Source: Oscillospiraceae bacterium
GTDB lineage: Bacteria > Bacillota > Clostridia > Oscillospirales > Oscillospiraceae
Reading direction: 5' to 3'
Assembly: GCA_017861365.1 (NCBI GenBank)
Contig: JAGFXR010000006.1
Span: 124,001-188,000 of the forward strand
Length of the DNA stretch: 64,000 nucleotides
Shown: piece by piece, positions 39,714 through 49,318 of the stretch
How the letters are laid out: the number at the start of each line of letters is the position of its first letter
How positions within the stretch are numbered: position 1 is the first letter of the stretch
Notes under the pieces: model-generated
Databases searched by the model: none
Told to the model about the DNA's origin: nothing
What the model saw: only the letters and a program-made list of their open reading frames with translations
Translations under genes and position numbers: made by a program

Positions 39714-39726
39714 TTTAGTAACTAAA
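39714..39726. promoter_or_regulatory. Candidate MarR-type operator 1 upstream of suf
   Basis: TTTAGTAACTAAA is a perfect 6-1-6 palindrome. It resembles the TTAG-n-CTAA core of known MarR/SlyA-type sites. Its centre is 30 bp from that of a second, similar palindrome. Confidence 0.5.
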
Positions 39727-39731
39727 TCATA

Positions 39732-39760
39732 TTGACTATTTTCTTTAGCAGCTATAAAAT
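39732..39760 (+). promoter_or_regulatory. Promoter of the marR-suf operon
   Basis: TTGACT (39732-39737), a 17-base spacer and TAAAAT (39755-39760). The -10 region overlaps the second palindrome. The implied leader is very short, so the exact start site is uncertain. Confidence 0.5.
39744..39758. promoter_or_regulatory. Candidate MarR-type operator 2 overlapping the -10 box
   Basis: TTTAGCAGCTATAAA contains the perfect palindrome TAGC-A-GCTA with near-matching flanks. It overlaps the -10 box, so a bound repressor would block RNA polymerase. Confidence 0.45.
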
Positions 39761-39776
39761 AAAGGTGGTGATAAAT

Positions 39777-40310
39777 ATGAGTAAACAGAGTGATTTAATC
39801 AAGAAGCTCTATCAAACACTGAATCTTATGGTTTGCGAGTCCAAAATACCGAAAAATTATGGAACCGCAGACGGACTGACCGCCGCAGACATAGATTTTC
39901 TGAAATGTATTCAGAGGAAAAAGCACGCGAAGGCGAGTGACATCTCTTCTTTTTTGGGTGTCACCAACGGGGCTGTGACCCAGCTGGCCAAAAAGCTGGA
40001 ACGAAAGGGTTATCTCGAACCTTACCGCATTCCCGGCAACAATAAGGAAAAATACTATCGCCTGACCTGCTGCGGTGAGACGGCCTGTGAGGGCTTCGAC
40101 ACGCATTACTCCAAAATCATCACAAACATTCAGAGTTATATCGATTCGCTGGACAGCGAAACGGTGGATCAAATTGCGGGACTCTTCGACGTCATCTCCG
40201 ATAGCCTGGCCATCGAAGCGCATTGCTCCGTCAAACATGGATTCAATCCGTCCGACTGCCAACAGGAAGCCGAGAAAATGAGGTGTGAAAAATGTCAAAA
40301 AATTTATTGA
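39777..40310 (+). CDS. MarR-type regulator with C-terminal cysteine cluster, first gene of the suf operon
   Basis: 177 residues from ATG 39777 (AAAGGTGG upstream). The central winged helix is MarR-like (LTAADIDFLKCIQ, ASDISSFLGVTNGAVTQLAKKLERKGYLEP, NNKEKYYRLT). The C-terminus carries four cysteines at about 150, 161, 170 and 173 (spacing C-x10-C-x8-C-x2-C) with a neighbouring His. This arrangement suits an Fe-S cluster or zinc. Its 3' end overlaps sufC by 19 bases, so it is translationally coupled to the Fe-S assembly genes. I infer a cluster-sensing repressor of suf, similar in role but not in family to IscR or SufR. Confidence 0.82.
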   Translation: MSKQSDLIKKLYQTLNLMVCESKIPKNYGTADGLTAADIDFLKCIQRKKHAKASDISSFLGVTNGAVTQLAKKLERKGYLEPYRIPGNNKEKYYRLTCCGETACEGFDTHYSKIITNIQSYIDSLDSETVDQIAGLFDVISDSLAIEAHCSVKHGFNPSDCQQEAEKMRCEKCQKIY

Positions 40311-41032
40311 GGATAGACAATCTTTACGCGTCTGTCGAGAACCGGCACATCCTCAAGGGAATCAATCTGGAGATCAAGCCCGGAGAGGTTCACGTCCTGA
40401 TGGGTCCGAACGGCGCGGGCAAGTCGACGCTTGCAAACGTCATCATGGGCGATCCGCGCTATCAGGTCGAGCGGGGCCGTATCTATTTTGACGATGTGGA
40501 TATTTCGGAAGAAAAAACAGACGCGCGTGCAAGGCGCGGGATCTTCCTGTCCTTCCAGACGCCGGAGGAAATTCCTGGCGTCACGGTTGAAAACTTCCTG
40601 CGCGCGGCAAAATCCGCCCAGACCGGCGTCAACCAGAAGCTGCTGCCCTTCCGGAAGGAGCTGCGCGAGACAATGGCCGAGCTTCAAATGCCGGTGGAGT
40701 ACGCTTCCCGATACCTCAATGTCGGATTCTCCGGAGGAGAGAAAAAGAAAAACGAAATTCTCCAGATGGAGGTATTGAAGCCGCGCCTTGTCATTTTGGA
40801 TGAGACCGACTCGGGGCTTGACATCGACGCCGTGAAGACCATCTCGGAGATCGTTGGTCGCTACAAAAACAGGAACAATGCGATTTTGATTATCACACAT
40901 ATTACCAGAATTCTGGAGAATCTGCCCGTGGACTACGTTCACATCCTGTCGGAGGGGCACATCGTCAAGACGGCGGACGCCTCCGTGATTGAACTGATCG
41001 AACGGGACGGCTTCGCCTCCATTCTCACCTGA
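40292..41032 (+). CDS. sufC: Fe-S cluster assembly ATPase SufC
   Basis: 246 residues. It has Walker A MGPNGAGKSTLANV, a SufC-type FLSFQTPEEIPGV segment after the Q-loop, signature FSGGEKKKNEILQM and Walker B LVILDETDSGLDIDA, all characteristic of SufC. It powers conformational change of the SufBD scaffold. The start is inside the regulator's 3' end with GAGGTG upstream. Confidence 0.96.
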   Translation: MSKNLLRIDNLYASVENRHILKGINLEIKPGEVHVLMGPNGAGKSTLANVIMGDPRYQVERGRIYFDDVDISEEKTDARARRGIFLSFQTPEEIPGVTVENFLRAAKSAQTGVNQKLLPFRKELRETMAELQMPVEYASRYLNVGFSGGEKKKNEILQMEVLKPRLVILDETDSGLDIDAVKTISEIVGRYKNRNNAILIITHITRILENLPVDYVHILSEGHIVKTADASVIELIERDGFASILT

Positions 41033-41047
41033 GAGGAGGACACAAAA

Positions 41048-42454
41048 ATGGCAAAGCAGAAAACCGTCCTTGCGGACATTGACCGTGCGCGCTTCGATTT
41101 CCGGGACGCGGATCACAGCCGCTTCAAAACGGGAAAGGGCCTGACGCCCGAAATTGTCCGGGAAATATCCGAAATCAAAAAGGAGCCGGCCTGGATGCTG
41201 GAGCATCGGCTTGCCTCGCTGGACATTTACAATCAGCTGACGCTGCCCAACTGGGGTCCCTCTCTTGACGAGCTGGATCTCGACGACATCGTCACCTACG
41301 TGAAGCCGAACACAGCGATGAAAAGTGACTGGAACGAGGTTCCGGGTTATATCAAGAACACCTTTGAGCGTCTTGGCATTCCAGAGGCCGAGCGCCAGTC
41401 CTTAGCCGGTGTCGGCGCCCAGTACGATTCCGAGGTTGTCTACCACAACGTGCGAAAGGAGCTCACGAAGCAGGGCGTCGTCTATACCGACATGGACAGC
41501 GCGCTGCGCGAGTATGAGGACATCATCAAGCCCCTGTTCATGAAGCTGGTGCCGCCCACCGACCATAAGTTCGCGGCCCTGCACGGCGCGGTCTGGTCAG
41601 GCGGATCCTTTGTCTACGTGCCCGCGGGCGTCAAGCTCCAGATTCCGCTCCAGTCCTATTTCCGTCTGAACGCGCCCGGCGCGGGTCAGTTTGAGCACAC
41701 GCTGATCGTTGTGGAGCCCGGCGCGGAGGCTCATTTTATCGAGGGCTGTTCGGCCCCCAAGTACAATGTTCTGAATCTGCACGCGGGCTGTGTGGAGCTC
41801 TATGTCCGCGAGGGCGCGTCGCTCAAATATTCCACGATCGAAAACTGGTCGAAAAATATGATGAACCTCAATACCAAGCGCGCGCTCGTGGAACAAAACG
41901 GAACAATCGAGTGGATTTCGGGTACCTTCGGCTCGCATGTCACCATGCTCTATCCCACGAGCGTCCTGGCGGGCGAGGGGGCCAAATCAAATTTCACCGG
42001 CATCACCTTCGCGGGGCAGGGTCAGAACCTTGACACGGGCACCAAAGTCATCCACGCCGCGCCGAATACGAAGTCCACGGTCAGCTCAAAGTCGATTGCG
42101 AAGGACGGGGGCATTTCCGTCTACCGCAGCGATATTCGCATCCTGCCTCAGGCGGTCAATTCAAAGTCCTCCGTCGTCTGCGAATCGCTGATGATCGACA
42201 GGCAGTCGCGCACCGACACGATCCCGCTCATGGATATCCGCAACGACCGGGTTGACATCGGCCACGAGGCGCGGATCGGCCGCATCAGCGACGCGGCAGT
42301 CTTTTACCTTATGACCCGTGGCCTTTCCGAGGAAGAGGCCAAGGCCATGATCGTCCGGGGATTTGTGGAGCCCATAGCCAAGGCACTTCCTCTGGAGTAC
42401 GCCGTGGAAATGAACCGGCTCATCAGCCTTGAGCTTGAAGGAACCATCGGTTAG
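41048..42454 (+). CDS. sufB: Fe-S cluster scaffold protein SufB
   Basis: 468 residues, full length. The right-handed beta-helix core contains FVYVPAGVKLQIPLQSYFR, FIEGCSAPKYNVLNLHAG and YSTIENWSKN, and the conserved C-terminal region has SVVCESLMIDRQSRTDTIP, including the Cys shown in E. coli SufB to matter for cluster assembly. It forms SufBC2D with its neighbours. GAGAGGAGG lies before ATG 41048. Confidence 0.96.
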   Translation: MAKQKTVLADIDRARFDFRDADHSRFKTGKGLTPEIVREISEIKKEPAWMLEHRLASLDIYNQLTLPNWGPSLDELDLDDIVTYVKPNTAMKSDWNEVPGYIKNTFERLGIPEAERQSLAGVGAQYDSEVVYHNVRKELTKQGVVYTDMDSALREYEDIIKPLFMKLVPPTDHKFAALHGAVWSGGSFVYVPAGVKLQIPLQSYFRLNAPGAGQFEHTLIVVEPGAEAHFIEGCSAPKYNVLNLHAGCVELYVREGASLKYSTIENWSKNMMNLNTKRALVEQNGTIEWISGTFGSHVTMLYPTSVLAGEGAKSNFTGITFAGQGQNLDTGTKVIHAAPNTKSTVSSKSIAKDGGISVYRSDIRILPQAVNSKSSVVCESLMIDRQSRTDTIPLMDIRNDRVDIGHEARIGRISDAAVFYLMTRGLSEEEAKAMIVRGFVEPIAKALPLEYAVEMNRLISLELEGTIG

Positions 42455-42464
42455 GAGGGACAAC

Positions 42465-43565
42465 ATGAAACAGCTTGTGACAAAAAACGACAGAACGCCG
42501 GTCTACACCTGGAATCGTGCCGGTGTCAACACGGCCGAGCGTGTCCTGAACGCCCCGGAGAGCGGCGTCTTCGGCGGCAAGGCAAATCTTGAGATACCCG
42601 AAGCGCTGCGGTGCTTCGGTGACTTTGAACACGCGGACATCGCCGCCCTCGGCGCGGGCTATTTCATCGGCCCGGAGACCTCAGCCTTCTTCGATGCCAA
42701 CGCCAATCGGCGGCACCATATACAGATTCCAGAGGGGACGAAGATAGAAACACCCTTTGTGCTTGAACTGTGTCTTTCCTCTGCTGACAGCATCCTGATG
42801 GACGACGTGCTGATCGAGGCACGGGCGGGCTCGGAGGCGACGGTGGTGCTCAAATACCGCTCGGAGCCGGGCAGCGGGGCCGAGCACACCGGCAGGCTGC
42901 GCCTGCTGGTGGAGCGGGGTGCCGTTCTGCGTCTCGTCAAGGTACAGAACCTTGCGGAGGACGCGATGCATACGGACGCCGTCGAAGGGCTTGTCCGGGG
43001 AAACGGCCGGGTAGAAATTCTGCTTGCGGAACTCGGCGCCCGCTCGGCTTTCTCCAGCTGCAACCTTGCGCTGGAGGGCGCGGGCAGCTCGGCCCACCTA
43101 GATGTCGTCTACCTTGGCACCGGCGAGCGAGCGCTCGACATGAGCTACCGCATTGTTCAAAGCGGCGTTAAAACGGACGCGCGAATTCGAGCCCGGGGCA
43201 TTCTTCAGGATAAAAGCAGAAAAATTTTGCGTGACACTCTGGATTTTGTCTCCGGCGCGGCCGGATCGAAGGGCCGGGAGGAGGAGGGCGTCCTGCTTTT
43301 AAGCCCCGAGGCTCACAATATCTCACTTCCCCTGCTGTTGTGCGCGGAAGATGACGTGGAGGGTGAGCACGCGGCCAGCGCGGGCCGACTGGATGAAAAG
43401 CTTCTGTTTTATTTCATGACCCGGGGCATCGGTGAGACAGAGGCGAAAAGGCTTCTGGCACGGGCCGCCCTCTCCGTCGTGCTGGAAAACGCACCGGACG
43501 CGCGCGTCCGGGATGAAATTCTGGAGACGGTCGACGCCTCCATCGGACAGGAGGCTGGCTTATGA
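42465..43565 (+). CDS. sufD: Fe-S cluster assembly protein SufD
   Basis: 366 residues from ATG 42465 with AGGAGGG upstream. It has the SufB/SufD beta-helix pattern without the cysteines of SufB: RRHHIQIPEGTKIETPFVLEL, LRLLVERGAVLRLVKVQNL, the DARIRARGILQDKSRKI segment and a SufD-like end (LLFYFMTRGIGETEAKRLLARA). It is shorter than the enterobacterial protein, as usual in Firmicutes. It overlaps sufS by ATGA. Confidence 0.94.
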   Translation: MKQLVTKNDRTPVYTWNRAGVNTAERVLNAPESGVFGGKANLEIPEALRCFGDFEHADIAALGAGYFIGPETSAFFDANANRRHHIQIPEGTKIETPFVLELCLSSADSILMDDVLIEARAGSEATVVLKYRSEPGSGAEHTGRLRLLVERGAVLRLVKVQNLAEDAMHTDAVEGLVRGNGRVEILLAELGARSAFSSCNLALEGAGSSAHLDVVYLGTGERALDMSYRIVQSGVKTDARIRARGILQDKSRKILRDTLDFVSGAAGSKGREEEGVLLLSPEAHNISLPLLLCAEDDVEGEHAASAGRLDEKLLFYFMTRGIGETEAKRLLARAALSVVLENAPDARVRDEILETVDASIGQEAGL

Positions 43566-44791
43566 ACCCGTATCGAAATGATTTCCCTCTTCTGCGGCAG
43601 ACAGACGAAAAGGGCAGAACCTGGGCCTACCTTGACAACGCCGCCACGACGCAGAAGCCCGAAGCCGTGATCACGGCGATCGCGGATTACTATCAAAGAG
43701 AAAACGCCAACCCTCATCGGGGCGCCTACGACCTGAGCGTCGCCGCGACAAACGTTCTCGAGTCCGCCCGTGAAAAGGTAAAGTCCTTCATCGGCGGGGA
43801 TGCGCGCGGTGAGCTTATCTTCACCCGGGGCGCGACAGAATCCATCAATCTCGTCGCCTCGAGCTGGGGTAAAATCGGCCTGCGGCCCGGCGACGAGATC
43901 GTCATCGCGATTTCCGAGCACCACAGCAATCTGCTGCCCTGGCAGGCGGCGGCCCGCGAAACGGGCGCGGTTTTAAACTATTTGTACACGGACGCGGACG
44001 GCCGTCTGCTCCAAAGTGAGATCGGCGCCAAGATCACCGAGCGAACGAAGCTTGTCGCCGTTGCCCATGTTTCAAACGTGACGGGCGTTGTGAATCCTGT
44101 GGAGGCTGTGATCCGGGCGGCGCACGCCGTGGGTGCGGTGGTGCTGGTGGACGGAACCCAGAGCGTCCCTCACATGGCGGTGAATGTTTCTGCGCTGGAC
44201 GCGGATTTTTATGTTTTTTCGGCGCACAAGATGCTGGGGCCAATGGGCATCGGAGCGCTCTACGGCAAAAAGGCCCTGCTTGATGCCATGCCGCCCTACC
44301 TCTACGGCGGGGACATGATCGAATACGTCGAGGAGCAGAGCGCGACCTTCGCGCCCCTGCCCCAGAAGTTTGAGGCCGGTACCCAGAATGTAGGCGGGGC
44401 GGCGGGGTTTGCCGCCGCGATCGATTATTTAATCTCAGCCGGTATGGATACCGTGGTTCGGCAGGAATGTGCGCTGACGGACGGACTGCTGAACGCGCTC
44501 AAAGACATACCCTATCTGCGCCTCATCGGCCCTTCGGAGAACGCGGAGCGGATCGGTGTCGTCTCCTTCACGATAGAGGGGGCGCATCCCCACGATATCG
44601 CGACAATCTTAAACTCGGACAGGGTGGCTGTCCGCTCGGGACACCACTGCGCCCAGCCTTTTATGCATCATCTCGGCGTTCAGGCGACTTGCCGTGCCAG
44701 TGTTTATCTTTATAATACCGAACAGGATATTGAACGGCTGGCTGAAAGCCTCAAAAACGTCAGGAGGTGGCTGGGTCATGGAGTTAAATGA
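43562..44791 (+). CDS. sufS: Cysteine desulfurase SufS
   Basis: 409 residues, group II desulfurase. The PLP lysine lies in FSAHKMLGPMGIGALYG, and the catalytic cysteine is in RSGHHCAQPFMHHLG near 364. It takes sulfur from cysteine as a persulfide and passes it to SufU, encoded next with a 14-base overlap. The start overlaps sufD by 4 bases. Confidence 0.96.
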   Translation: MNPYRNDFPLLRQTDEKGRTWAYLDNAATTQKPEAVITAIADYYQRENANPHRGAYDLSVAATNVLESAREKVKSFIGGDARGELIFTRGATESINLVASSWGKIGLRPGDEIVIAISEHHSNLLPWQAAARETGAVLNYLYTDADGRLLQSEIGAKITERTKLVAVAHVSNVTGVVNPVEAVIRAAHAVGAVVLVDGTQSVPHMAVNVSALDADFYVFSAHKMLGPMGIGALYGKKALLDAMPPYLYGGDMIEYVEEQSATFAPLPQKFEAGTQNVGGAAGFAAAIDYLISAGMDTVVRQECALTDGLLNALKDIPYLRLIGPSENAERIGVVSFTIEGAHPHDIATILNSDRVAVRSGHHCAQPFMHHLGVQATCRASVYLYNTEQDIERLAESLKNVRRWLGHGVK

Positions 44792-45221
44792 GCTTTATTC
44801 CGATATTGTCACAGAATACGCCGCCGATAAGTCGCACTGGCACCCGCTTGCCGGGGCTGACGTGCATATGCGGGGCGTAAATCCGAGCTGCGGCGATGAA
44901 CTGAACCTTGAACTTGACATTGAGGACGGCAGGATCCGCCAGGCCGGCCTGACCGGAGGCGGATGCGCAATCTCCGAGGCCTCGGCCTCGATCATGGCGG
45001 ATATGGTGGAGGGCAAGACCCTTGAAGAGGCAAAGACCCTTGCCGGGCTCTTCCTGGCCATGGTCAGGAAGGAGATCACCGACGTAGGGCAGCTTGAAAC
45101 GCTCGAAGATGCTCAGGTTTTCGAAAACATCTCGAATATGCCCGCCCGCACCAAATGCGCGGTGCTTGCCTGGCACACGCTGGATGAAGCTTTGAAAAAA
45201 TGGGAGGCCGAACAGCTCTGA
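44778..45221 (+). CDS. sufU: SufU-type zinc-dependent sulfurtransferase
   Basis: 147 residues from ATG 44778 (AGGAGG upstream). The zinc/sulfur-acceptor cysteines are in VNPSCGDELN, TGGGCAISEASAS and RTKCAVLAW, with the Asp of CGD as the other ligand. SufU takes the persulfide from SufS in Gram-positive bacteria. It is the last gene of the operon, followed by a strong terminator. Confidence 0.95.
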   Translation: MELNELYSDIVTEYAADKSHWHPLAGADVHMRGVNPSCGDELNLELDIEDGRIRQAGLTGGGCAISEASASIMADMVEGKTLEEAKTLAGLFLAMVRKEITDVGQLETLEDAQVFENISNMPARTKCAVLAWHTLDEALKKWEAEQL

Positions 45222-45911: not shown

Positions 45912-46220
45912 TTATTCACCGCCCAGCTTCTTCAGCTCCTCCTCGACTTCTTCCGCCCCTTCCTGATAAAACTTCTCCTCATCAGGGGCAAGCTCCTTCA
46001 AGAGCCGAAGGAATTCACCTGCATGAACTCGTTCCTCATCCGCAATATCTTTCAGAACCTCAATTGCCAATACGTTATCCGTTGATTCCGCCAACTGCAT
46101 ATAGAGTTGTATCGCCTCGTATTCGGCTGATATCATAAAGCGTATGGCTCTGACCAGCTCAGCCTCAGTTAGCTTTCGCTCCTTTGCAAGTCCTGAAAAC
46201 GGATGTCCAAAATCCGGCAT
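45912..46220 (-). CDS. Small ferritin-like / rubrerythrin-type diiron protein
   Basis: 102 residues from ATG 46220 with AAGGAG 7 bases upstream. The protein is two helices: RAIRFMISAEYEAIQLYMQLAE... and IEVLKDIADEERVHAGEFLRLL, the second with the E-E-x-x-H metal motif of the ferritin-like fold. It is about half the length of rubrerythrin, so dimerisation would be needed to build the diiron site, as in encapsulin-associated ferritins. It could store iron or detoxify peroxide. No encapsulin gene is in the window. It lies between two tRNA-like scars. Confidence 0.85.
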   Translation of the reverse strand: MPDFGHPFSGLAKERKLTEAELVRAIRFMISAEYEAIQLYMQLAESTDNVLAIEVLKDIADEERVHAGEFLRLLKELAPDEEKFYQEGAEEVEEELKKLGGE

Positions 46221-46503
46221 ATTAACACTCCTTTGTAACAAGATTTTTGCCGACAGGCCTTACTTCCAATTTTATTTTAATGGAGAACCGTGCTGATTGC
46301 AACTGTTTTTTCAACCAAAGCATGCCGCAATTCGATCAAACAACACCCAGCCGCATATGACCACGGGAAGAACATCAAGTCAAATGAAGATCCGCTTTTT
46401 GTTACGTCGAGACGCAGCGCCCGCTGATAAACGCCAAGGTCTAGTAATTGTGCTGTTTTTGATAGTCGTATATGCTCTGTTTTACATTTATAAAACATAA
46501 AAA

Positions 46504-46840: not shown

Positions 46841-49318
46841 ATGGAAGAACGAAAAAACGGAGCGGCGGAGCTCCATTATTATTCCGACCGGCTGAAAGAC
46901 AAACTGAATCAACTGTCGGTGTCACACACCGCTATTGTGGAAGCGCCGTCGGGCTATGGGAAGACGACCGCCGTGCGGGATCATCTTGCCGCCCTTCCGC
47001 AGAATACGGGCGTCTATTGGTTTACCGCCTTCGGGGAGCTGGCCGAGGCCTGTTTCTGGCGCTTTGCGGCGGAGCTTGCCAATATTGATCCAAATGCGGG
47101 GAAGCGCCTGCAAAAGGTCGGCCTTCCGAACGCGGCGACGTTGGGCGAGGCGTGCGACGCGCTGCGCTCTATCCGGTGCCAAGACGAAGTGTTTCTCGTG
47201 ATTGACAATTTCCAGTACCTCGCCGCCGAGATGCACCCCGCGCTCTTCACCGCACTCGTCGAACACGGCGGAGAGCGGCTACATGTGATTCTCCTGACGC
47301 AGATGATGACGAAGAGCCTGCTCGCCGCCGTTGTGGGGCGCGGCTTTGCCCATATCACCCCGGAGAACCTCAGGCTTGACTCCGCCGACATCCGGCGCTA
47401 CTATGCGGATTCTGGCGTGAACGTCGCACAGGCGACCGCCGAAAAGGTGGCGGATTTCACCGGCGGCTGGATCATTGCGGTCTGCCTGCAGCTGCGAGCC
47501 TACCGCGAGAAAGGCACCTTTGCGGACACGCACGACGTCATGACGCTCATGGGAGTCCTCGTCTGGGACAAGCTCAGCGATCAGCAGCAGGATTTTTTTC
47601 TGTGCCTGTCACCTTTCGAAGCGCTTACCGTTCCCCGCATGTGTACGCTCATGGACTGGGAAGCCCTTCCCGGCTGGGCGCTGGAGGCATTGGAAATTCC
47701 GTTTATCTATTACGCGCCGGAGGAGCTCCAGTACTGGCCCCACCGGATTCTGCTGGATTTTGTCGTACTCAAATGCCGTGAGCGCGGAGACTGCTACGAA
47801 AACGCCTGTTTTACGCGGGCGGGCGACCTTTACCGGGCACTGGGCGATCACGCGCAGGCGTTGAGCTTCTACTGGCGCGTAAAAGATTATGACCGGATTC
47901 TCTCGCTGGATTTATCCCGCCCGCTTCTGGAAAGCGCCGACGCCGTGTCTTTTTCACAGATGGCGCTCGATATCGCGCAAAACTGCCCTGAGGACATCCA
48001 GCGACGCCACCTTCTTTCCATGCTCCATATCGCCTGGGCCCTCATGCTGTTTTCAAAGACCATCGAATTCCACGCGCTGATGGAAAAGCTCGTTGGGTTG
48101 CTGGACATGTGCGACGAAGATGACGCCGATCTTCTGCGGGGCGAGTGGATGCTGCTTTCCGCCTATGACCGCTATCCGCGTCTTGAGGAAATGACGCAGG
48201 CGGTTGTACAGGCCGCAGAGCTTCTGGACGGCACGGTTTCCCGCGTCATCCTCCCCGAAGCCCCGTGGTGCTTCGGCGCGATCTCTCAGCTTGACGAATT
48301 TCATCTTAAAAAAGGCGAGGCCGAAAAAGAGGCCGACGCGCTGGAAAACTGTATCACCGTCTATTCCAGACTCACGGGCGGACACGGCAGGGGTGCGGAC
48401 GCGCTATTCCGCGCGGAGCTTGCCATCTGCCGGGGCGATTGGACGGGCGCGGAAATCTTCGCCTACAAGGCGGCGTTCGTCGCGGAAAGCAGCCGTCAGG
48501 GAGTCATCCAACTGGGAGCCGCGCGGGTGCTGGCCGAGGTCGCCATGTTCCGCGCCGACGCGGACGCGTGGCTGGCCGCGATGAACTTCACGGAGCGCGC
48601 CATCGCCTCCGCCGCGCAGAATACGCCGGTGATGCGCGCGGCGCTTGAGCTCGCGCGGGGTCTGCTGTATGCGGAGCTGACCTTGCCGGAGCATGTCGCC
48701 CCTTGGCTCAGAGACGGTAATTTTTTCGGAAAACCCCTGCTCACGCCCATGGTCGGCGACGCCATCTACGTGCATCTGTCTTGTCTGGCGCTGGAGGGAA
48801 AGTATACGCGGCTTGCCGGAGAGGCGCTGGCCGTGCCGGAGGGGCTTGGCGGCAAAAGCGCCTTTGCCTGGATGCTGCTGTCCCTCCTTCAGGCCGTGGG
48901 GCAGTATCTCGCCGGCAATCGTGAGCAGGCGCTGACGCATTTGAGCCGGGCGGCGGAGCTGGAACTGTCGGAGGGCTTTGTGACGCATCTGGCGACCTGG
49001 GCGGCCTACCTCGGCGGGCTGGCGGACGAGTTGATTCAAGCAAAATACCCGGACCGGTACGACGCCTATTTGAAAACCAGGGAGCGTCTTGCGGAGGGCC
49101 GGAAAACCATTTCCCGCGCGCTGTCAAAAGAGGAAGGCCCCGAGGCGCTGACCGAACGGGAGCGCGAGATCGCGCTGCTTGCCGCGAAGGGGCTCCGCAA
49201 CGGCGAGATCGCGGAAAAGCTCCGCGTTTCGGAGAGCACGGTGCGCTTTCATCTTCGCGCGGCGTTTCAGAAGCTCGGCGTCGACCGCCGCTCGAAGCTG
49301 GCGGAAAAACTAAAGTAA
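46841..49318 (+). CDS. MalT-like LuxR family transcriptional regulator (STAND ATPase)
   Basis: 825 residues. The N-terminal STAND NTPase has Walker A EAPSGYGKTTAV near 33 and a Walker-B-like VFLVIDNFQYL near 117. A winged-helix/TPR-like helical middle (about 290-740) probably binds an inducer. The LuxR helix-turn-helix is at the end (LTEREREIALLAAKG, RNGEIAEKLRVSESTVRFHLRAAFQKLG). Such proteins activate promoters on binding a ligand and ATP. GGGAG lies 7 bases before ATG 46841; a short out-of-frame GTG frame with a stronger AAGGAG overlaps the start and may tune translation. The next genes are DUF2442 and the SLH protein, likely targets. Confidence 0.9.
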   Translation: MEERKNGAAELHYYSDRLKDKLNQLSVSHTAIVEAPSGYGKTTAVRDHLAALPQNTGVYWFTAFGELAEACFWRFAAELANIDPNAGKRLQKVGLPNAATLGEACDALRSIRCQDEVFLVIDNFQYLAAEMHPALFTALVEHGGERLHVILLTQMMTKSLLAAVVGRGFAHITPENLRLDSADIRRYYADSGVNVAQATAEKVADFTGGWIIAVCLQLRAYREKGTFADTHDVMTLMGVLVWDKLSDQQQDFFLCLSPFEALTVPRMCTLMDWEALPGWALEALEIPFIYYAPEELQYWPHRILLDFVVLKCRERGDCYENACFTRAGDLYRALGDHAQALSFYWRVKDYDRILSLDLSRPLLESADAVSFSQMALDIAQNCPEDIQRRHLLSMLHIAWALMLFSKTIEFHALMEKLVGLLDMCDEDDADLLRGEWMLLSAYDRYPRLEEMTQAVVQAAELLDGTVSRVILPEAPWCFGAISQLDEFHLKKGEAEKEADALENCITVYSRLTGGHGRGADALFRAELAICRGDWTGAEIFAYKAAFVAESSRQGVIQLGAARVLAEVAMFRADADAWLAAMNFTERAIASAAQNTPVMRAALELARGLLYAELTLPEHVAPWLRDGNFFGKPLLTPMVGDAIYVHLSCLALEGKYTRLAGEALAVPEGLGGKSAFAWMLLSLLQAVGQYLAGNREQALTHLSRAAELELSEGFVTHLATWAAYLGGLADELIQAKYPDRYDAYLKTRERLAEGRKTISRALSKEEGPEALTEREREIALLAAKGLRNGEIAEKLRVSESTVRFHLRAAFQKLGVDRRSKLAEKLK

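Follow-up and report, generated by a model that had tools for sequence, protein, structure and literature searches.

A MarR-type protein with a conserved C-terminal cysteine tail and twin promoter palindromes as a probable dedicated regulator of the sufCBDSU operon

The suf operon described here lies in a stretch of 64,000 nucleotides (hereafter, the window) of an Oscillospiraceae bacterium whose source assembly comprises 1.69 Mb and is 74% complete. The first gene of the operon (39777–40310, + strand) codes for a protein of 177 amino acids that belongs to the MarR family (Pfam MarR PF01047, 38.2 bits, the cut-off being 24.6). Its reading frame opens with the ATG at 39777, ahead of which there is a probable ribosome-binding site, AAGGTGGT (39763–39770, +). 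A complete sufCBDSU set follows on the same strand: sufC (40292–41032; TIGR01978, 317.2 bits), sufB (41048–42454; TIGR01980, 692.8 bits), sufD (42465–43565; PF01458, 192.4 bits; TIGR01981, 193.7 bits, below its cut-off of 222), sufS (43562–44791; TIGR01979, 559.7 bits), and sufU (44769–45221; TIGR01994, 151.5 bits). According to these coordinates, the last 19 nt of the regulator gene are shared with sufC. The upstream neighbour is divergent and encodes a peptide-transporter binding protein. The original prediction that a MarR-family protein is the first product of the suf operon is thus borne out, but the span 39714–40310 that it assigned to this element starts with the first promoter palindrome and only from 39777 on is it coding. 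Two other genes were seen 3′ of the operon. One of them (45912–46241, − strand) encodes a small rubrerythrin-like protein of 109 amino acids (PF02915, 33.5 bits), and the other (46841–49318, +) encodes an 825-residue protein with a weak N-terminal AAA match and a C-terminal LuxR-type HTH, a layout that we take to be MalT-like.

An AlphaFold2 model of the regulator, built from four sequences, has a mean pLDDT of 83.8 and adopts the MarR fold. Solved MarR proteins head the list of structural matches, the top one being FabT (6jbx; Z 14.4, rmsd 3.3, 144 aligned residues), and the fold is shared by AdcR and ZitR (5jlu, Z 13.9; 5yhx, Z 13.6). These matches cover mostly residues 1–149 and hardly test the tail, which is modelled with low confidence from residue 151 on (block means of 66, 72, and 51) and contains one extra C-terminal helix (158–176), also of low confidence. 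FabT, AdcR, and ZitR control targets other than suf. Identity with FabT and with AdcR/ZitR was rejected, the NCBIfam scores of the window protein being far below the cut-offs (25.9 of 200 bits for FabT and 23.7 of 175 bits for AdcR). A DtxR/MntR identity was discarded as well: Fe_dep_repress reached 24.2 of the 26 bits needed and Fe_dep_repr_C was not listed. The SufR family is absent from the 10 NCBIfam matches of the window protein at E 0.01, and the Rrf2 domain PF02082 gave no match at E 0.001.

The promoter carries two similar palindromes, both of them predicted operators. Box 1, TTTAGTAACTAAA, with the core TTTAGTNRCTAAA (39714–39726), is placed just upstream of the −35 hexamer TTGACT (39732–39737, +), while box 2, TTTAGCAGCTATA (39744–39756), fills the 3′ part of the 17-bp spacer that separates the −35 box from the −10 hexamer TAAAAT (39755–39760, +). 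The box centres, 39720 and 39750, are 30 bp apart. The twin palindromes originally proposed are really present. Of the 63,930 positions of the window, only three, the suf promoter among them, have a pair of dyads that match in at least five of six arm positions and are separated by exactly 30 bp. The accompanying statement that the second of them sits over the −10 box is only approximate, since box 2 is located in the spacer and its overlap is limited to the first two bases of TAAAAT. The hexamers were found as a sigma-70 match; taken alone, such a match is not above chance (one found versus a mean of 2.0 in shuffled sequences).

Orthologs of the regulator, 52–59% identical and encoded directly before sufC, exist in three other genomes that belong to another order and to another class. 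A SufB search in 391 genomes of the class gave 57 hits, the window's own included, and led to genome G592, whose SufB is 78% and whose regulator is 52% identical, the latter again directly preceding sufC. G779, from the same genus as G592, also has an ortholog. A profile search in 398 genomes of the phylum at E 1e-12 yielded 15 matching genomes, among which G1244 was the only one, besides the window's own, with a full-length match (59% identity). Further searches around the ortholog genomes (13, 30, and 20 genomes) matched G592, G779, and G1244 only. The order regulator-sufC-B-D-S-U is maintained in G592 and G1244; in G779 the contig ends inside sufC, the regulator and sufB being on different contigs that are both broken in this gene. 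The regulator overlaps sufC by 19 nt in the three genomes, as it does in the window.

Apart from these cases the regulator is rare. It occurs in one of four species of the genus of G1244, and the genus of the window has no second genome. Among 24 suf loci listed for the window's own order (the window itself being one and two being not assessable), it is found in none of the 21 others. Protein searches in 60 and 394 related genomes gave matches in 11 and 25 genomes, respectively, the window's own included, the rest being weak, generic MarR proteins of at most 41% identity. Viral contigs gave no regulator match, and a plasmid collection gave generic MarR hits only (12 records). A scan of a contig collection for exact peptides recovered four weak relatives only; the orthologs found later do not contain those peptide patterns and might be absent from the collection. 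Altogether, a MarR gene adjoins suf in three of 75 assessable loci, one of which (G1244) had entered the set through the MarR query itself. The neighbouring gene was not assessable in G115, G184, G578, G881, and the SufB contig of G779. The control of suf by a MarR-type protein is thus not a general solution in Clostridia. Other suf loci are accompanied by other regulators. For instance, G385 has an HTH protein, XRE-like by eye (L061, 131–619), G667 has an Rrf2 protein (L126, 2013–2405), and G805 a divergent Rrf2 gene (L080, upstream region).

The promoter is conserved together with the protein. Palindromes had been expected upstream of orthologous operons and were found in G592, G779, and G1244, the two boxes and the two hexamers being spaced as in the window. 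The distance from the start of box 1 to the regulator start codon is 63 or 64 nt in all cases. Box 1 is conserved in the three genomes, whereas box 2 reads TTTAGCTGCTATA in G592 and G779, at the position that it has in the window, and is weaker and degenerate in G1244 (ATTAGTAACAATA). The hexamers are TTGACT and TAAAAT in G592 and TTGATT and TATAAT in G1244. When the three distinct promoters are aligned on box 1, 10–12 of 15 columns agree around this box and the −35 hexamer, 8–9 of 15 around box 2, and 0–2 further upstream. In G1244, box 1 lies within a perfect inverted repeat whose arms are 16 nt long, and both boxes form a direct repeat (period 30). The inverted repeat to which box 1 of G592 belongs has 20-nt arms that match at 90%. 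The arms of the window boxes are shorter, and a repeat finder with a minimum of 10 nt lists nothing at the window promoter.

These repeats could also be read as sites for another factor or as terminator-like hairpins, the MarR protein acting elsewhere. The situation in G592 would suit this explanation: its AT-rich box 1 precedes a T-run, and the neighbouring upstream gene has the same orientation as the operon. However, the upstream gene is divergent in both the window and G1244, no terminator-like site was found in the promoter region of the window, and the exact boxes co-occur only with the MarR gene. Box 1 was consequently rejected as a terminator, and we regard the whole explanation as very improbable.

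The association of the boxes with the MarR gene was followed through a pattern, TTTAGYNRCTAWA, derived from the suf sites of the MarR-bearing loci. Within 750 nt upstream of sufC (some loci offered only about 570–770 nt of upstream sequence), the pattern occurs without mismatch in three of 75 loci, which are those that have the MarR gene; allowing one mismatch adds a single further locus. In whole genomes it is present at two places in G592, two in G779, three in the window's genome, and three in G1244, and the places away from suf number zero, zero, one, and two, respectively. All three of these are inside an open reading frame or at the end of one. A reversed control pattern is commoner (10–18 per genome). 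As TTTAGYNRCTAWA was taken from the suf sites, only its rarity elsewhere is informative; the near absence of other sites suggests that the regulator controls its own operon only.

The SufB sequences of the window, G1244, G592, and G779 form one clade (100/96) in a tree of 80 such proteins. All four genomes have the MarR gene, and the clade stands apart from the SufB sequences of the family to which the window belongs. The tree, like the counts of upstream patterns and of sufC starts, omits duplicate loci of the same genome and the separate genome G838 (L092). The position of this clade indicates that operon, regulator, and operators have probably moved together between lineages by horizontal transfer. 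The same set of protein, gene position, twin operators, and promoter is seen in three distinct lineages, and in no other locus among the 75 does the exact operator pattern precede sufC. On this comparative basis, there is good support for a dedicated suf regulator of the MarR type.

The C-terminal part of the window protein contains cysteines at positions 150, 161, 170, and 173, and the layout originally described, C-x10-C-x8-C-x2-C, is therefore correct for this protein. It is not conserved as such. In an alignment of three distinct orthologs, C20, C44, C104, C150, C170, and C173 are invariant, these six being exactly the cysteines of the G1244 protein, but C161 (codon 40257–40259, +) is replaced by His in G592 and G779 and by Arg in G1244, and C98 and C99 are not kept. 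A four-cysteine cluster of this layout was rejected on account of the ortholog variation at C161, and the conserved tail is C150-x19-C170-x2-C173, with an x19 linker free of indels in the three sequences. The expectation that the tail cysteines would be conserved in orthologs has thus been confirmed for three of them. The motif is absent from all 42 other MarR relatives assessed (10 of 54 loci had no BLAST match and were left out) and from the remote homologs of G1239 and G1280.

Part of this conservation might come from the DNA rather than from the protein. C150 (40224–40226, +) is encoded upstream of sufC and its ribosome site, but the codons of C170-E-K-C173 (40284–40295, +) overlap the sufC start region. 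The sufC ribosome site AGGTG runs into the C170 codon (AGG-TGY, R169-C170), and the sufC ATG (40292–40294) runs into the C173 codon, whose TGY contains the TG of the ATG. The conservation of C170 and C173 is therefore weaker evidence than it appears. It could be argued that the protein is a suf repressor in which C-x2-C is mainly a by-product of the overlap and which responds to a different signal, such as a small molecule bound in the MarR pocket. AGGTG|Y and ATG|Y do encode both residues in the +2 frame of all orthologs. The same frame was then read at the sufC start of other suf loci, 68 of 72 of which yielded an ATG close to the expected position, the remaining four yielding none. In these 68, a cysteine appeared at the place of C173 in 26, at that of C170 in one, and at both in none. 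C173 alone thus says little, but the C170-C173 pair says something, and C150 is unaffected by the overlap. The invariance of C150, well upstream of the overlap, and the linker of constant length also speak against a by-product, as does the fact that a regulator of a different family, described below, precedes suf with a similar cysteine tail although its stop codon comes before the sufC start. We therefore consider this alternative to be improbable.

The supply of iron-sulfur clusters in bacteria is feedback-controlled. The explanation that we favour, with a confidence slightly better than even for the whole of it, is that the protein is a dedicated autorepressor of sufCBDSU with an Fe-S-responsive tail. 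The regulator would consist of a MarR core and a tail of roughly 30 residues, and a MarR dimer would bind each palindrome, upstream of the −35 box and in the −35/−10 spacer, thereby blocking RNA polymerase. Repression through promoter overlap is very probable in view of the promoter anatomy. Given repression, the Fe-S step is rather probable, as suggested by the operon context and the cysteines, and sensing of Fe-S status by the regulator is likely. The tail would hold a labile cluster by means of C150, C170, and C173, the candidates for the fourth ligand being a residue near 161 or one of the conserved C20, C44, and C104. The cluster-loaded protein may repress suf when clusters are plentiful; if their supply falls due to iron shortage or oxygen, the apo-protein would let go and suf would be induced.

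The same cysteines allow for a suf autorepressor whose sensing relies on thiols or zinc, through disulfide formation or a structural Zn site. The cysteines of the MarR core (C20, C44, and C104) are conserved as fully as those of the tail, and C20 sits in the first helix of the model, which is where OhrR-type proteins have their sensing cysteine. C-x2-C plus another cysteine is a common zinc arrangement, and the three conserved tail residues suit zinc equally well. An OhrR model does pick up the G592 ortholog, albeit with a very low score (18.8 of 200 bits). However, no OhrR match was obtained for the window protein at E 0.01, its score for the zinc-dependent AdcR is far too low (23.7 of 175 bits, as given above), and the position at the head of suf together with a set of sites nearly confined to one operon fits feedback by cluster levels better. 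We judge a thiol- or zinc-based sensor to be unlikely, although less so than an overlap by-product.

To our knowledge, the suf sensors already described belong to few families (Rrf2 and SufR), and we rate the window protein as a probable suf repressor of the winged-helix type, built on a MarR scaffold. The proposed repression by a form loaded with a labile cluster is modelled on SufR, ArnR, and RisR. According to the accessible text of PMC6034842, SufR, which occurs in cyanobacteria and, as Rv1460, in Mycobacterium, is a winged-helix suf repressor in which three conserved C-terminal cysteines are needed for function; Rv1460 is encoded by the first gene of its operon. It shares with the window protein the winged helix, the suf operon, and the C-terminal cysteine trio, but it is longer and its cysteines (203, 216, and 244) are separated by 12 and 27 residues instead of 19 and 2. 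ArnR of Corynebacterium is described, in the available part of PMC12343034, as a MarR/ArsR-like winged-helix protein that carries a [4Fe-4S] cluster on three C-terminal cysteines (179, 193, and 223), with a fourth ligand that is unknown; unlike the window regulator, it has nar and hmp as its targets and NO as its signal. RisR is an Rrf2 protein whose holo form represses suf (PMC9973013, as far as the accessible text goes). IscR and RisR resemble the proposed regulator in the Fe-S-dependent feedback on suf or isc, and differ from it in belonging to the Rrf2 family, whose domain PF02082 is unmatched in the window protein. The accessible parts of PMC6311696, PMC13157175, PMC5214746, and PMC2830190 contain no MarR protein controlling suf, and a MarR-type suf regulator was not found in the literature searched, which was mostly literature other than subscription papers.

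A parallel exists in another regulator family. A DtxR/MntR-like protein with a C-terminal C-x8-C-x2-C is encoded before sufC in five f76/f59 genomes (G916, G724, G776, G838, and G760; loci L079, L108, L109, L092, and L125), two of the five proteins having been scanned with Pfam. The metal ligands of MntR are presumably D8, E11, H77, E99, E102, and H103. When the G724 protein is aligned to MntR, only E99 is kept, the other five positions being changed (D8 to E, E11 to K, H77 to Y, E102 to K, and H103 to M). Palindromes resembling GTTAACCGTNNTTAAC (GTTAAC) are present upstream of sufC in three of the four DtxR-type loci scanned, and L125 has, by eye, a weaker version. This group, which belongs to a different family from the MarR protein, suggests a repeated solution. 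It is conceivable, though we hold it only tentatively, that suf control by Fe-S levels arose at least twice in these anaerobes through short cysteine tails added to a MarR (C-x19-C-x2-C) and a DtxR/MntR scaffold (C-x8-C-x2-C), with operators around the suf promoter; the latter scaffold would have lost most of its metal site. A DtxR/MntR-type gene also adjoins the MarR-suf operon itself in G592 (L135, 843–1340 in reverse-complement coordinates, same strand) and in G1244 (L154, 3337–3741, − strand, divergent); there is none directly upstream of this operon in the window.

If the proposed explanation is true, an autorepressor of the MarR type that moves together with its operon and the two operators would constitute a compact and testable regulator in anaerobes, and the MarR-type and DtxR-type cases together would show how such sensors arise.
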